A stretch of 64,000 nucleotides of DNA from Herbiconiux ginsengi (GTDB taxonomy: Bacteria > Actinomycetota > Actinomycetes > Actinomycetales > Microbacteriaceae). Below are positions 728 to 5,455 of the stretch, one piece after another; positions within the stretch are counted from its first letter, which is position 1, and each line of letters starts with the position of its first letter. The DNA is taken from assembly GCF_900107435.1 (NCBI RefSeq), contig NZ_FNPZ01000001.1:1460960-1524959 (forward strand), in the 5' to 3' direction. Both the position numbers and the translations under genes were made by a program. The notes beneath the pieces were generated by a model. That model was not told where the DNA came from and did not search any database. It was given only the letters and a program-made list of their open reading frames with translations.

Positions 728-940
728 TTACGCGTCGTCGAGCCGGAAACCGACCTTGAGGGTCACCTGGAAATGCGCGATCTCGCCGTTCTCCAGCTCT
801 CCCCGCGTCGACACGACCTCGAACCAGTCGACGTTGCGCAGGGTCTTCGTGGCGCGGGCGAGTCCGTTGCGGATCGCGGCATCCGTGCCCTCGGGCGAGG
901 TGCCGACGATCTCGGTGACGCGGTAGGTGTGGCTGCTCAT
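728..940 (-). CDS. Dodecin family flavin-binding protein
   Basis: A 70-residue protein of the usual dodecin length. It begins MSSHTYRVTEIVGTSPEG and contains TRGELENGEIAHFQVTLKVGF, whose central part resembles the dodecin strand that stacks flavin dimers. Dodecins form small hollow dodecamers that store or buffer riboflavin/FMN in the cytoplasm. The ATG at 940 is preceded on the minus strand by GGAGG seven bases away. A TAGGCT -10-like hexamer (complement of 977-982) would give a leader of about 30 nt. The gene stands alone, convergent with the permease fragment. Confidence 0.9.
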   Translation of the reverse strand: MSSHTYRVTEIVGTSPEGTDAAIRNGLARATKTLRNVDWFEVVSTRGELENGEIAHFQVTLKVGFRLDDA

Positions 941-1221
941 GGTCGACCTCCAGTGGTGCGATGGGCTGAGATTCCGAGCCTATGCGGATGCACTCCCCAC
1001 GAACAGGGGCCGTGCGGCTCCATGAAAGCCAAAGATTTGCGCAGCTTCGGATCAAGATCATGCCAAGGCCACCTCAACATCCGTGGTGATTCTGCTGAGC
1101 GAAAGGCTCGATCCGACGCATCCTGTGCGACAAAAGGCCTGATCAGTTGTAGTGATTCGAGGTCGGTGACCCCCGCCCGGGGGAGGGGCCGATCCGAAGC
1201 TGGGAGCGACGGAAACACCCC
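941..1221. other. Intergenic region between dodecin and the GT2 leader promoter
   Basis: No coding sequence is supported here. It should contain the dodecin promoter near its left end (TAGGCT on the minus strand at 977-982). The rest shows no repeat, RNA gene or conserved motif that I can recognise. It ends at the putative promoter of the glycosyltransferase operon. Confidence 0.5.
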
Positions 1222-1258
1222 TGAAACAGAGCGGGATTCGAGAGTAGTGTCGCTCTCG
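1222..1258 (+). promoter_or_regulatory. Putative promoter and overlapping palindrome for the GT2 operon
   Basis: TGAAAC at 1222-1227 and TAGTGT at 1245-1250 are 17 bp apart and would start transcription near 1257. The -10 hexamer is flanked by inverted arms CGAGAG (1239-1244) and CTCTCG (1253-1258), an arrangement expected for a repressor site. The assignment is by eye. It matters because it places all four downstream hairpins inside the transcript. Confidence 0.45.
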
Positions 1259-1423
1259 GATCGGTGGTCACCCGCCACCGGTCCCAAGAACCCGGACGGC
1301 AGTGGTCACCCCCCACCCGCCGTCCGCGGCATCACCACAGCGTCCCCAACGCTCGATGCCGCGGTGGTGTGTGCAGCTCACCCCCAGCGTCCCCAACGCT
1401 CGGCTGCGCACACCACCCCTTTT
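1258..1423 (+). promoter_or_regulatory. Structured leader with four tandem hairpins
   Basis: Hairpin A: arms 1258-1267/1275-1284, 10 pairs with one G-U, loop TCACCCG. Hairpin B: arms 1294-1300/1319-1325 plus inner GTGG/CCAC, loop TCACCCC. Hairpin C: arms 1326-1333/1355-1362, topped by AGCGT-CCCCA-ACGCT. Hairpin D: 15-pair arms 1363-1377/1403-1417 with one G-U, topped by the same AGCGT-CCCCA-ACGCT. D is followed by TTTT at 1420-1423, so it resembles an intrinsic terminator. CACCAC inside hairpin C (1333-1338) can pair with GTGGTG (1364-1369), which would compete with D. I do not recognise a known riboswitch class. An attenuator for the downstream polysaccharide genes is an inference. Confidence 0.6.
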
Positions 1424-1457
1424 CTCACCCGAACATCGTCTTCGACCCGAGGAACAC

Positions 1458-3866
1458 ATGTCTACGAAGTCCCTGGCTTCGCCTGCCCGAAAACGACAAC
1501 TGGGCGCCGAGCGCAACACCGAGCCACTGTCCACCGTCCACGCGATTCCGAGCGATGCGAAGATCACCTGGGGCCGGCTGGCCATCGTGATCACGGTGGC
1601 CGCCTGGGTCACCTACGTCGTCTACACCGTCGTCCGGCAGTTCCTGAACAACGGAACCGAGAGCTTCCGCTTCACCACCGAGGCCATCTCCTACCTCGTG
1701 GTCGTCACGTTCCTCACCTTCTCGGCCCTCATGTACCTCGTGGCTCGCCAAGGCGCGCTGCAGCGCTTTCGCGACCACGTTCGGGTGCCGCGGGCCGAGC
1801 TCGACAAGCACTTCTCCGCGGCGCACCAGGACATGACGGTGCTCGTGCCCTCCTACAGCGAAGAGCCCTCCGTCGTGCGCAAGACCCTCTGGTCGGCCGC
1901 GCTGCAGGAGTACCCCTCGCTCCGGGTCGTGCTGCTGCTCGACGACCCGCCCTTCCCCTCCGACCCCGCCGTCGCGGCCCGGCTCGAGATCTCGCGGCAC
2001 ATCGCCGACGACATCGCCGCCGCCCTGCGAGCACCCCGCGATCGCGCCGTCGACGCCCTGCTCAGCTTCGAAGGCGAGTGGTTGCTGCACGGTGGGGTGC
2101 AGGCATCCGACGTCCGCCGTCTCGCCCACGCCTACACCGAGGCGGCGAGCTGGCTGCTGGCCTTCGCCGACGACGAGGAGCGCACCGACCACGTCGACAC
2201 CTTCTTCGTGGAGCAGGTGCTCGGCGCCCTCGCCTACGACCTCAGCGTCACGGCCGATGCCCTCGACGTGGCGCTGCTGGCCGGCGAGTCGCCGACGGCC
2301 GAGCGGATGCTCGAACTGCACCGCCGGCTGATCTGGATCTTCTCCGCCGAACTCGAGACCTTCGAGCGCAAGAAGTTCGCGTCGCTGTCGCACGAGGCCA
2401 ACAAGGCCATGAACCTCAACTCCTACATCGGCTTGATGGGCGGACGCTTCCGTCGCGAGCAGAGCCCCGACGGCATCATCCTGCGCCCCGTCGAGGCTTA
2501 CGAGGCAGCCGACTACGAAGTGCCGGATGCCGGCTACCTCCTCACCCTCGACGCCGACTCCTTGCTGCTGCGCGAGTACTGCCTGCGGCTCGTCTACTTC
2601 CTCGAGCAGCCGAACAACGAGCGGGTCGCCGTGACGCAGACCCCGTACTCCTCGTTCCGCGGCGCCCCGACCCGCATCGAGCGCCTGGCCGGCGCCACCA
2701 CCGACCTGCAGCACATCCAGCACCAGGGCATGACGCACTACGGGGCGACGTTCTGGGTGGGCGCGAACGCGGTCATCCGCAAGCCTGCGCTCGAAGACAT
2801 CGTCGAGACCGAGATGGTGGGCGGATTCGAGGTGCGGCGCTACGTGCAAGACCGCACGGTCATCGAAGACACCGAGTCGAGCGTCGACCTGGGCCTGCAC
2901 GGCTGGACCCTCGTCAACTACCCCGAGCGCCTCAGCTACAGCGCCACCCCGCCCGACTTCGGCTCGCTGATCGTGCAGCGCCGGCGCTGGGCCAACGGCG
3001 GCCTGCTCATCCTGCCGAAGTTCTGGCGGCAGATCCGCGCCCGCAAGCGCGCGGGGCATCCGGTGGGCATCGGCGAGATCCTGCTGCGCGTGAACTACAT
3101 GGCCTCGATCACCTGGGCCAGCTTCGGCCTGGTGTTCCTGCTCGCCTACCCCTACGACAGCCGGCTGCTCAGCCCGGTCGTGCTGATCGCGGCGCTGCCG
3201 TACTTCATCGCGATGGGCAGCGACCTGCGCTACAGCGGCTACAAGTTCACCGACATCTTCCGGATCTACGGGTTCAACCTCATCCTTCTTCCGGTGAACC
3301 TGGCGGGCGTGTTCAAGTCGCTCGAGCAGGCCGTGTCCAGCAAGAAGATCCCGTTCGCCCGCACCCCGAAGGTGCGCAACCGCACCGCGGCACCGCTGCT
3401 CTACGTGGTGGCGCCCTACGCCATCGTCGTGTTCTCGGCCTTCACCTTCTGGCGCGACTTCGGCGCCCAGAACTGGGGCAACGCGGCCTTCGCGGCGCTC
3501 AACGCCTCACTCGCCAGCTGGGCCATCCTCGCCAACATCGGCATCGGGCCGTCGCTGGTGGATGTCTGGCTCGGCCTCACCAAGTGGCTCTACGTCGAGC
3601 GCAAGCCGGCGGTGGCAGCCACCTCGGTCGCGCCCGTCGCCGCGGGACTCGTCGCCACGCAGACCGCCGACCCGGCGGAGCTCGCCGTCGAGGACGAGTC
3701 CGTCGACTGGCGCTCGGTGCTCTACCACGGCAACCCGGCCGATCCGGAGACCACGGATGCGAGCGCCACCCGGCGTCGCGCCTCCGGAACCCGCGGCAGG
3801 GTGCGCCGCAGCGCGCGCAGCACCCGTCGTCGCGAGAGCGTCGGCGCCGAGCGGAGTGCAGCATGA
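1458..3866 (+). CDS. Processive family 2 glycosyltransferase (cellulose/chitin/hyaluronan synthase-like)
   Basis: An 802-residue inner-membrane synthase that should polymerise a beta-linked polysaccharide from a nucleotide sugar and export it. Two N-terminal membrane segments (about 40-62 and 76-98) precede the catalytic domain. Key motifs are D162-D163, DAD at 365-367, EDTE with D471, and QRRRW at 507-511, matching the D,D,D,QxxRW pattern of processive GT2 enzymes. Several hydrophobic segments follow, then a basic Arg/Ser-rich tail. I chose ATG 1458, with GAGGA five bases upstream, over the earlier in-frame GTG because upstream sequence is the hairpin leader. Its stop overlaps the start of the GH18-like gene (ATGA), so the two are translationally coupled. 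The product polymer is not identifiable from sequence; chitin or a related amino-sugar polymer is suggested by the neighbour. Confidence 0.85.
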   Translation: MSTKSLASPARKRQLGAERNTEPLSTVHAIPSDAKITWGRLAIVITVAAWVTYVVYTVVRQFLNNGTESFRFTTEAISYLVVVTFLTFSALMYLVARQGALQRFRDHVRVPRAELDKHFSAAHQDMTVLVPSYSEEPSVVRKTLWSAALQEYPSLRVVLLLDDPPFPSDPAVAARLEISRHIADDIAAALRAPRDRAVDALLSFEGEWLLHGGVQASDVRRLAHAYTEAASWLLAFADDEERTDHVDTFFVEQVLGALAYDLSVTADALDVALLAGESPTAERMLELHRRLIWIFSAELETFERKKFASLSHEANKAMNLNSYIGLMGGRFRREQSPDGIILRPVEAYEAADYEVPDAGYLLTLDADSLLLREYCLRLVYFLEQPNNERVAVTQTPYSSFRGAPTRIERLAGATTDLQHIQHQGMTHYGATFWVGANAVIRKPALEDIVETEMVGGFEVRRYVQDRTVIEDTESSVDLGLHGWTLVNYPERLSYSATPPDFGSLIVQRRRWANGGLLILPKFWRQIRARKRAGHPVGIGEILLRVNYMASITWASFGLVFLLAYPYDSRLLSPVVLIAALPYFIAMGSDLRYSGYKFTDIFRIYGFNLILLPVNLAGVFKSLEQAVSSKKIPFARTPKVRNRTAAPLLYVVAPYAIVVFSAFTFWRDFGAQNWGNAAFAALNASLASWAILANIGIGPSLVDVWLGLTKWLYVERKPAVAATSVAPVAAGLVATQTADPAELAVEDESVDWRSVLYHGNPADPETTDASATRRRASGTRGRVRRSARSTRRRESVGAERSAA

Positions 3867-5455
3867 GCGGCATCGCCCCGGCCACTCCGAAGGCCGCCGC
3901 GGCATCCGGCCCGCACGACGGCAAGCGCCTCTCGCCGCTGCGCGTCATCATCGCCGCCGGCGCCATCGCGGCCCTCTCGCTCGGCGCCTTCGTGGCCGTG
4001 CAGAGCTTCGACTCGGCCCAGGCCGACGGCGTGAGCCCCTGGTTCGCCGGCTACGTCGACGTCACCGCCACGCCCACCTACGCGTTCGAGACACCGGCCT
4101 CGCCCGAGGACGCGGACGTGGTGCTCTCGTTCGTCGTGGCCTCCACCGACGACCCCTGCGTTCCAACCTGGGGCACCGCCTACACGCTCGACGGAGCGTC
4201 GAAAGACCTCGACCTCGACCGTCGTCTCGCCCGACTCCGCCAGGCCGGCGGCGACGCGGTGGTCTCGTTCGGCGGGCAGTTGAACGACGAGCTGGCCACC
4301 GGATGCTCCGACCCCGCTGCGCTCCAAGCCGCCTACGCCTCCGTCGTCGACCGCTACCAGCTCTCCACCATCGACCTCGACATCGAGGGCTCTGCGCTCG
4401 CCGACTCGGCGGCCGGGGAGCGCCGGGCCACCGCGATCGCGGCGCTGCAACAGGCCAAGCGCGACGCCGGTGAGGAACTCGCCGTCTGGCTCACTCTGCC
4501 GGTCGCCCCTTCGGGACTGACCGAAGACGCCACCGACACCGTGGCGCAGATGCTCAAGGCGGGGGTCGATCTCGCCGGCGTCAACGTGATGACCATGAAC
4601 TACGGCACCAGCCGCGGCACGGATTCGATGGCCGATGCCTCGATCGACGCCCTGGAAGCCACACACCGCCAACTCGACGCGCTGTACTCGAAGGCCGACA
4701 TCCAGCTCTCCGATGCGACGCTCTGGTCGAAGATCGGGGCCACCCCGATGGCCGGGCAGAACGACGTGAAGGGCGACGTGTTCGGCCTCGCCGACGCGCA
4801 GGCGCTGAACGCCTTCGCGCAGAAGCAGGGCCTCGGCCGCATGTCGCTCTGGTCACTGAACCGCGACACCACCTGCGGGCCGAACTACGTCGACCTCAAG
4901 CGGGTCTCGGATGCCTGCAGCGGCATCGCCCAGGGCGACCAGACCTTCGCCGGACTGCTCTCGGCGGGCTTGCCCGGGCATCCGGATCTCTCGGCCTCGT
5001 CGGTGACGACGCCCGATGCCGACCAGCCGGTGGTCGACAACCCGGCCACCAGCCCGTACCCGATCTGGGCGGAGGAGTCGTCGTACCTCAAGGGCACGAA
5101 GATCGTCTGGCACGGCAACGTCTACCAGGCCAAGTGGTGGACCCGCGGCGACATCCCCGACGACCCGGTGCTCAACGACTGGGAGACGCCGTGGACCCTC
5201 GTGGGGCCCGTGCTGCCGGGCGAGACGCCTTACAAGGCGCTCACCCTGCCCGAGGGCACCTATCCCGACTGGGCCGGTGCCGCAGCCTACGAGAAGGGCG
5301 CTCGGGTGCTGTTCGACGGCGTGCCTTATGAGTCGAAGTGGTGGAACCAGGGTGCGAGCCCCGAGGCCTCCAGCGCCGACCCCGACAGCTCGCCCTGGGT
5401 GCCGCTCACCGAAGACGAGATCTCCGCCGCTCTGGCCACCCCGGCTGCTTCCTGA
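3863..5455 (+). CDS. Membrane-anchored GH18-like protein with two CBM5/12 chitin-binding modules
   Basis: A 530-residue protein with a short cytoplasmic N-terminus and one hydrophobic segment (about residues 28-48), so the bulk is extracellular. The GH18-like barrel carries the strand-4 motif as STIDLDIE: D171, D173 and catalytic E175 are present but the first Asp of DxxDxDxE is Ser168. Two repeats, starting around W402 and W470, each contain a KWW core (QAKWWTRG and ESKWWNQG) typical of chitin-binding type 3 modules. It probably trims, binds or releases the polymer made by the overlapping GT2 upstream. The acid residue is intact, so hydrolysis is possible, but a binding-only role is not excluded. 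No terminator is obvious before the convergent gene 5 bp away. Confidence 0.85.
   Translation: MSGIAPATPKAAAASGPHDGKRLSPLRVIIAAGAIAALSLGAFVAVQSFDSAQADGVSPWFAGYVDVTATPTYAFETPASPEDADVVLSFVVASTDDPCVPTWGTAYTLDGASKDLDLDRRLARLRQAGGDAVVSFGGQLNDELATGCSDPAALQAAYASVVDRYQLSTIDLDIEGSALADSAAGERRATAIAALQQAKRDAGEELAVWLTLPVAPSGLTEDATDTVAQMLKAGVDLAGVNVMTMNYGTSRGTDSMADASIDALEATHRQLDALYSKADIQLSDATLWSKIGATPMAGQNDVKGDVFGLADAQALNAFAQKQGLGRMSLWSLNRDTTCGPNYVDLKRVSDACSGIAQGDQTFAGLLSAGLPGHPDLSASSVTTPDADQPVVDNPATSPYPIWAEESSYLKGTKIVWHGNVYQAKWWTRGDIPDDPVLNDWETPWTLVGPVLPGETPYKALTLPEGTYPDWAGAAAYEKGARVLFDGVPYESKWWNQGASPEASSADPDSSPWVPLTEDEISAALATPAAS

Follow-up and report, generated by a model that had tools for sequence, protein, structure and literature searches.

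In this study, we explored the leader of a polysaccharide synthase gene in Herbiconiux ginsengi together with its counterparts in other Microbacteriaceae. Our findings reveal a conserved, strand-specific and mostly single-stranded motif, ACCCGA, that recurs in several gene families and is set, in part of the leaders, within covarying hairpins. We hold it somewhat more probable than an even bet that the stretch studied in the window (the whole 64,000 nucleotides of DNA that were analysed) forms the 5' leader of the synthase mRNA and carries, in a Herbiconiux version, a post-transcriptional control element of Microbacteriaceae. Such leaders most likely serve as multi-site targets of an RNA-binding factor, in the manner of CsrA on glgC and pgaA but with another recognition sequence.

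The synthase leader of Herbiconiux

The leader (1240-1457) is predicted to fold into four successive hairpins, A to D (table 1), with a minimum free energy of -107 kcal/mol against a mean of -70.25 kcal/mol (sd 4.86) in 200 dinucleotide shuffles (z -7.56). The four hairpins of the initial annotation are thus present where it had placed them and more stable than chance; the GTGG-TCACCC[G/C]-CCAC tops that it gave to A and B are confirmed by reading, and the top that it described as common to C and D, AGCGTCCCCAACGCT, recurs exactly at 1339 and 1386. C and D also have the same build, consisting of an outer stem, a left C-rich bulge, a 5-bp inner stem, a CCCCA loop and one right-side base. A bulged-hairpin rule (CC in the left bulge, CCC in the loop) applied to the window leader picks out these two, a best and second-best result that none of 500 shuffles matched. 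Taken as a class, hairpins with CCC in the loop are marginally above shuffles in the window (4 of 100 shuffles). The sites displayed by the hairpins (ACCCGC in A; ACCCCC in B and in the bulge of D; UCCCCA in C and D) have predicted unpaired probabilities of 0.67-0.92. Exact ACCCGA is found within the leader at 1427 and 1445 only, with unpaired probabilities of 0.71 and 0.57, respectively, against a leader mean of 0.35, and two near-matches lie outside the loops, at 1290 (0.62) and 1315 (0.32).

Matches to the leader DNA were found in 2 of 148 other genomes, both of the same genus, at 92% and 82% identity. All four hairpins are kept in these relatives, where 98.8% of 166 pair cells are standard; among the 56 hairpin pairs of the three sequences, two have changed on both sides, three on one side and two include an unpaired cell. 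The covariation between the window and its relatives was equalled in 43 of 500 pair shuffles and, with only three sequences, is weak evidence. The ACCCGA copy at the ribosome-binding site (1445-1450) is retained in all three same-genus genomes that have this leader. In one relative (L003) the loop of hairpin C reads ACCCCAA, a single base away from ACCCGAA.

The synthase itself falls far under the cut-off of the NCBIfam CelA model (68.5 vs 699.1 bits). The product of the overlapping downstream gene, probably exported as read by eye, matches PF02839 (E 5.3e-11) and, under that family's cut-off, PF00704 (E 2.2e-4). The promoter-like element upstream of the hairpins has equal spacing in both same-genus relatives, with TGAAAT/TAATGT in one of them, and would start the RNA at about 1257, just 5' of hairpin A; a scan for consensus promoters returned none.

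Table 1. Features of the synthase leader and its surroundings in the window
Feature	Position	Strand	Remarks
G/C palindrome CCCCCG-CC-CGGGGG	1170..1183	.	upstream of leader
Promoter-like TGAAAC-N17-TAGTGT	1222..1250	+	putative, recognised by eye
Hairpin A	1258..1284	+	loop with ACCCGC 1270-1275; identical across three genomes
Hairpin B	1294..1325	+	loop with ACCCCC 1308-1313; relatives differ by one U-A to C-G
Hairpin C	1326..1362	+	outer stem, left bulge ACCAC, inner stem AGCGT/ACGCT
Hairpin C loop	1343-1348	+	CCCCA (UCCCCA)
Hairpin D	1363..1417	+	long outer stem, left bulge with ACCCCC 1380-1385, inner stem
Hairpin D loop	1390-1395	+	UCCCCA; D has one U-A to C-G between relatives
Linker ACCCGA	1427..1432	+	canonical; in the window only, altered in both relatives
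ACCCGA at Shine-Dalgarno	1445..1450	+	canonical; overlaps GAGGA, 13 nt before ATG; kept in three genomes
GT2 polysaccharide synthase, cellulose-synthase-like	1458..3866	+	Pfam PF13632, E 8.1e-35
Downstream gene overlapping the synthase stop	3863..5455	+	CBM5/12 protein, weak GH18-like region

ACCCGA and bulged hairpins in Microbacteriaceae

The synthase leaders of our first set (89 homologous loci, L004-L092, with paralogues included and the G010 locus present twice) are mostly not alignable with each other. They nonetheless share ACCCGA, which occurs 115 times in 13,884 nt near the start versus 18 times in 57,562 nt further up, that is, at 8.28 per kb within 150 nt of the start and 0.31 per kb further upstream. 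Similarly, in a second set of 80 named loci, which overlaps the first, 91 copies in 12,267 nt compare with 25 in 96,834 nt (7.42 vs 0.26 per kb). When the two sets are pooled into 135 distinct leaders, ACCCGA is the top-scoring 6-mer, with 151 copies against 26 further upstream (7.46 vs 0.30 per kb); the reverse complement, TCGGGT, hardly departs from background, with 8 vs 25 copies (0.40 vs 0.29 per kb), which argues for a signal at the level of RNA. The copies are most frequent from -60 to -31 and from -20 to -1, and over 154 sites their mean unpaired probability is 0.77, versus 0.36 for other 6-mers of equal G+C. At least one copy is present in 75 of the 135 leaders, at least two in 47 and at least three in 25, with 60 leaders having none. 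Loci bearing the motif are titled Leifsonia, Salinibacterium, Cryobacterium, Curtobacterium, Compostimonas, Herbiconiux, Microcella, Frigoribacterium and others; none of the 16 Arthrobacter-titled loci has it. In one locus (L066, genome G186) the whole module, hairpin and CCCGAGGA site, has apparently been duplicated in tandem, giving seven CCCGA copies in the 150 nt before the start.

A search for asymmetric bulged hairpins that imposed no sequence constraint brought ACCCGA to the surface in the bulge and the loop of many leaders. When CCCG was required at both places, 24 of the 89 leaders yielded such a hairpin, against a mean of 1.6 and a maximum of 5 of 89 in 20 shuffles; 65 leaders fail this strict rule. 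We aligned 19 of the 24 hairpins (N-padded), leaving out L010, L020, L045, L052 and L070, four of them redundant or oddly spaced and one set aside for its right-side base. ACCCGA fills the left bulge and the apical loop of the aligned hairpins, and each of the 14 stem pairs has changed on both sides (covariation 0.997 vs 0.246; cells with double changes 96 vs 25.7 in the pair shuffle). Since these hairpins were chosen for pairing, their 100% pairing is not evidence, but the covariation around unchanged loops is. About 11-26 nt separate the end of the family hairpin from the start codon, beside which another copy of the motif often lies. The initial annotation had proposed, as a test, that pairing should be conserved where the synthase is; this holds across the family, but with stem sequences that differ and with another loop consensus, ACCCGA.

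Model R1, which was built from canonical leaders, matched 11 of the 70 synthase loci on which it had not been trained at E < 0.1 (L052, L016, L010, L022, L045, L071, L055, L070, L056, L063 and L076). In 30 genomes it gave 28 matches at E <= 1. Of these, 20 fall in synthase leaders (14 in training genomes) and eight elsewhere; the latter we regard, judging by eye only, as chance. Two training genomes (G409 and G351) gave no match, so R1 lacks sensitivity and leaves the wider regulon unmapped. Run on the whole window at E <= 10, it did not report C or D; within the leader, C is the best match (7.1 bits) and D the second (5.9 bits), weak scores beside chance-like matches that reach 4.0. C and D do conform to the bulged-hairpin architecture, in which an outer and an inner stem are parted by a C-rich bulge on the left and by 0-1 nt on the right and are closed by a C-rich loop. 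Their bulges are ACCAC and CACCCCC and their loops CCCCA, canonical ACCCGA being absent from both. We place the window in the family on account of its homologous gene, its position and architecture and its ribosome-binding-site copy, and not on account of the model score. It is most likely a divergent member, that is, the Herbiconiux version of the Microbacteriaceae control element.

The motif is not confined to synthase genes. For an exopolysaccharide sugar transferase (PF02397), ACCCGA lies within 350 nt in 17 of the 20 homologues that share at least 54% identity (12 of 15 when the five loci found by the motif are set aside), versus 1 of 15 homologues below 50% identity. Homologues of a TetR-type regulator (PF00440) carry it in 12 of 28 cases (3.30 vs 0.55 per kb), or in 8 of 24 without the four found by the motif. 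The TetR leaders L353-L359 hold two to four copies each, some within hairpins whose stems compensate, as in CATCACTGGG-ACCCGAA-CCTAGTGATG (L353) and CATCACCGGG-ACCCGAA-CCCGGTGATG (L355). The layout nearest to that of the window is seen in L357 and L358, whose tandem arrays contain both ACCCGA and CCCCC loops. Compared with shuffles, CCC-loop hairpins stand out clearly in L358 (0 of 100) and marginally in L357 (2 of 100) and L353 (3 of 100), but not in the remaining TetR loci tested. ACCCGA also occurs at three genes with a DUF2510 domain, at one that encodes SdrD-B and bacterial Ig domains, and at a gene for a small protein that is followed by a signal-peptidase-like gene. The genome of the window offers one further candidate, a 45-residue protein without a Pfam match (G000:C11, L326).

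Searches by sequence pattern gave noisy results. A triple-ACCCGA pattern gave 92 matches in 25 genomes versus 47 when read backwards, many of them in coding repeats. The pattern ACCCGA-N6..36-ACCCGA-N0..10-ATG gave 144 matches in 26 genomes versus 17 for the reversed pattern, an imperfect control in that ATG is reversed as well; out of 40 of these 144 stretches, chosen by eye and read, about ten are leader-like, while a coding-like frame was flagged for 14. Some further loci may be mentioned here. In L125 (2408-3669, genome G054) a cluster of ACCCGA precedes a gene without a Pfam match, presumably resembling IniB, and R1 finds a match (22.3 bits, E 0.014) between this gene and the one that follows, which by eye encodes a dynamin-like GTPase. 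In L129 (2530-2569, G409) tandem AGGCCAGAACCCGAAACAGGCC-like repeats, each with ACCCGA, lie just past a stop codon by eye and could be a sponge or a repeat element. L132, L134 and L138, at unrelated genes, have ACCCGAAAGCAGT in common, with a second ACCCGA within a few bases.

How the leaders may act

In the model that we favour, a sequence-specific RNA-binding factor, probably a multimeric protein, would dock on the hairpin sites and from there reach across to the ACCCGA copy at the ribosome-binding site. The bridged factor would block initiation and keep matrix production low for as long as it stays in place. The tandem hairpins, with their variant C-rich loops, would provide the docking sites in the window, and the last site would be ACCCGAGGA itself. 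Repression is assumed here over activation; the factor, the direction in which it controls and its effect on translation are our inference.

ACCCGA and the C-rich loops could instead offer seed-pairing sites to a trans-acting small RNA, which would use UCGGGU or G-rich loops to block or open the ribosome-binding site. The ACCCGA sites tend to be unpaired and lie on the mRNA strand, and C-rich loops could pair with G-rich ones with no protein needed; yet the same six bases twice per hairpin, the recurring bulge and loop geometry and the unrelated genes concerned suit a protein better, and we regard a small RNA as unlikely. Rho would need neither a strict ACCCGA nor a copy at the start codon, which counts against a reading of slightly lower probability still, namely that the leader controls transcription elongation and that its C-rich unpaired sites are Rho entry points, hidden or exposed by the hairpins. 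On the other side, the window loops are unpaired, C-rich and G-poor, and the control of pgaA by CsrA is partly via Rho (PMC7652899).

The repeats might also be DNA sites for a transcription factor, the hairpins being by-products of palindromic operators. The window has a separate palindrome upstream of the leader (table 1), possibly a DNA operator. Of 136 synthase upstream regions, 22 have related palindromes at -420..-60, versus 2 such palindromes in 86,536 nt further upstream, under a rule (CCCC in the arm, gap 3-8) that leaves the window copy, with its gap of 2, outside the 22; palindromes precede TetR leaders too. Strand specificity, the unpaired state of ACCCGA between covarying arms and its highest frequency near the start codon all speak against this reading, which we find quite improbable. 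As to the palindromes themselves, those of L034, L053, L073 and L222 lie in the synthase promoter region as CCCCC/GGGGG or GTCCCC/GGGGAC and are perhaps operators, and those before the TetR leaders read GGACAGAC...GTCTG..GTCC.

A biosynthetic gene with a structured leader might suggest a metabolite-binding riboswitch, but the modules are short and repeated, vary in number and spacing and lack a single conserved core, and the Rfam 15 covariance models gave no family match in window 900-1600 and 11 loci (by E-value) or in 19 loci (at gathering score), the output being tRNAs and three sub-threshold matches taken as chance (RRE, Plastid-ycf2 and EAV_LTH); we consider a riboswitch very improbable. 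Slimmest of all are the chances of the self-acting attenuator of the initial annotation, in which rearrangement of C and D would switch an intrinsic terminator: D is a strong hairpin followed by CCCCTTTT, but no terminator-like site was found there, the T run is 4, 3 and 2 long in the three genomes, and one relative has CACCCA and the other CAGAGA in place of the CACCAC of C, with loss of the match to GTGGTG. We dropped this switch as the main mechanism, as it is not conserved and has no terminator-like site. What stands of that annotation, supported and widened, is the suggestion that the leader is a cis-regulatory RNA not described before or offers several target sites to an RNA-binding factor; C/D rearrangement and termination do not.

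Known systems and biological meaning

The RNA-binding factor that we favour invites comparison with CsrA/RsmA. The leaders of E. coli glgC and pgaABCD and of Pseudomonas psl are alike in carrying short single-stranded sites in loops and over the ribosome-binding site of polysaccharide genes. On glgC, the hairpin loop bound by CsrA lies immediately before the Shine-Dalgarno sequence, to which CsrA bridges; pgaA has six CsrA sites, two of them over the Shine-Dalgarno sequence and the start; and CsrA also represses NhaR, the pga transcription factor (PMC7652899). The core is GGA in those leaders, whereas here ACCCGA is enriched and the window loops are CCC variants, and here there are two sites per bulged hairpin. 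Several sites, one of them over the ribosome-binding site, are present here as well, which supports a similar way of working and not membership of CsrA/RsmA. CsrA (PF02599) found no match in G000 (the genome of the window), G002, G432 and G351, all of which have ACCCGA leaders. CsrA is unlikely to be the factor because it was not found in this genome, and as a candidate it was rejected on its absence from the matches in these four. The other 12 of 16 Microbacteriaceae genomes have CsrA over the cut-off (e.g. G054, G035, G042 and G450); a Csr protein thus exists beside the ACCCGA motif in many Microbacteriaceae.

Other known RNAs are similar in part. 6C RNA, in Actinobacteria, has hairpins with C-rich loops and is a separate small RNA with an Rfam family, which had no match in the leaders studied here. 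The ANTAR-target RNAs of Actinobacteria are alike in having hairpin loops with a short conserved sequence, some over the ribosome-binding site; they are described as dual stem-loops with six-base loops and fixed A1 and G4 (PMC8164766). Here, on the other hand, one hairpin has both a left bulge and a loop, of ACCCGAA or longer, the loops have 6-11 bases, and, compared by eye with that description, the G stands at position 5 of ACCCGA. In Beggiatoaceae, a repeated heptamer, TAACTGA, is found by start codons and was proposed as the site of a post-transcriptional regulator; it differs in sequence and phylum and forms direct repeats, and the abstract makes no mention of hairpins (PMC4679880). The epsC and wcaG candidate RNAs, likewise candidate structured leaders of exopolysaccharide genes (PMC2864571), belong to other taxa, and no Rfam model found a match here.

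Sequence-specific post-transcriptional regulators of the biofilm matrix are well known in Gammaproteobacteria (PMC7652899). In the open-licence literature we recognised no such regulator for actinobacterial matrix genes and no description of the ACCCGA motif. Overall, we put at about even the chances that Microbacteriaceae possess a hitherto undescribed global post-transcriptional system, in which an RNA-binding factor would read ACCCGA-type single-stranded sites in bulged or tandem hairpins and over start codons and so co-ordinate exopolysaccharide synthesis, surface proteins, DUF2510 proteins and a TetR regulator. Such a system would be a counterpart of Csr/Rsm, independently evolved and with a different code. 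A short RNA code common to many leaders gives a direct handle, through bait RNA and reporter mutations, for finding the factor, and annotators would learn that polysaccharide production in these soil- and plant-associated bacteria is controlled once transcription has begun.
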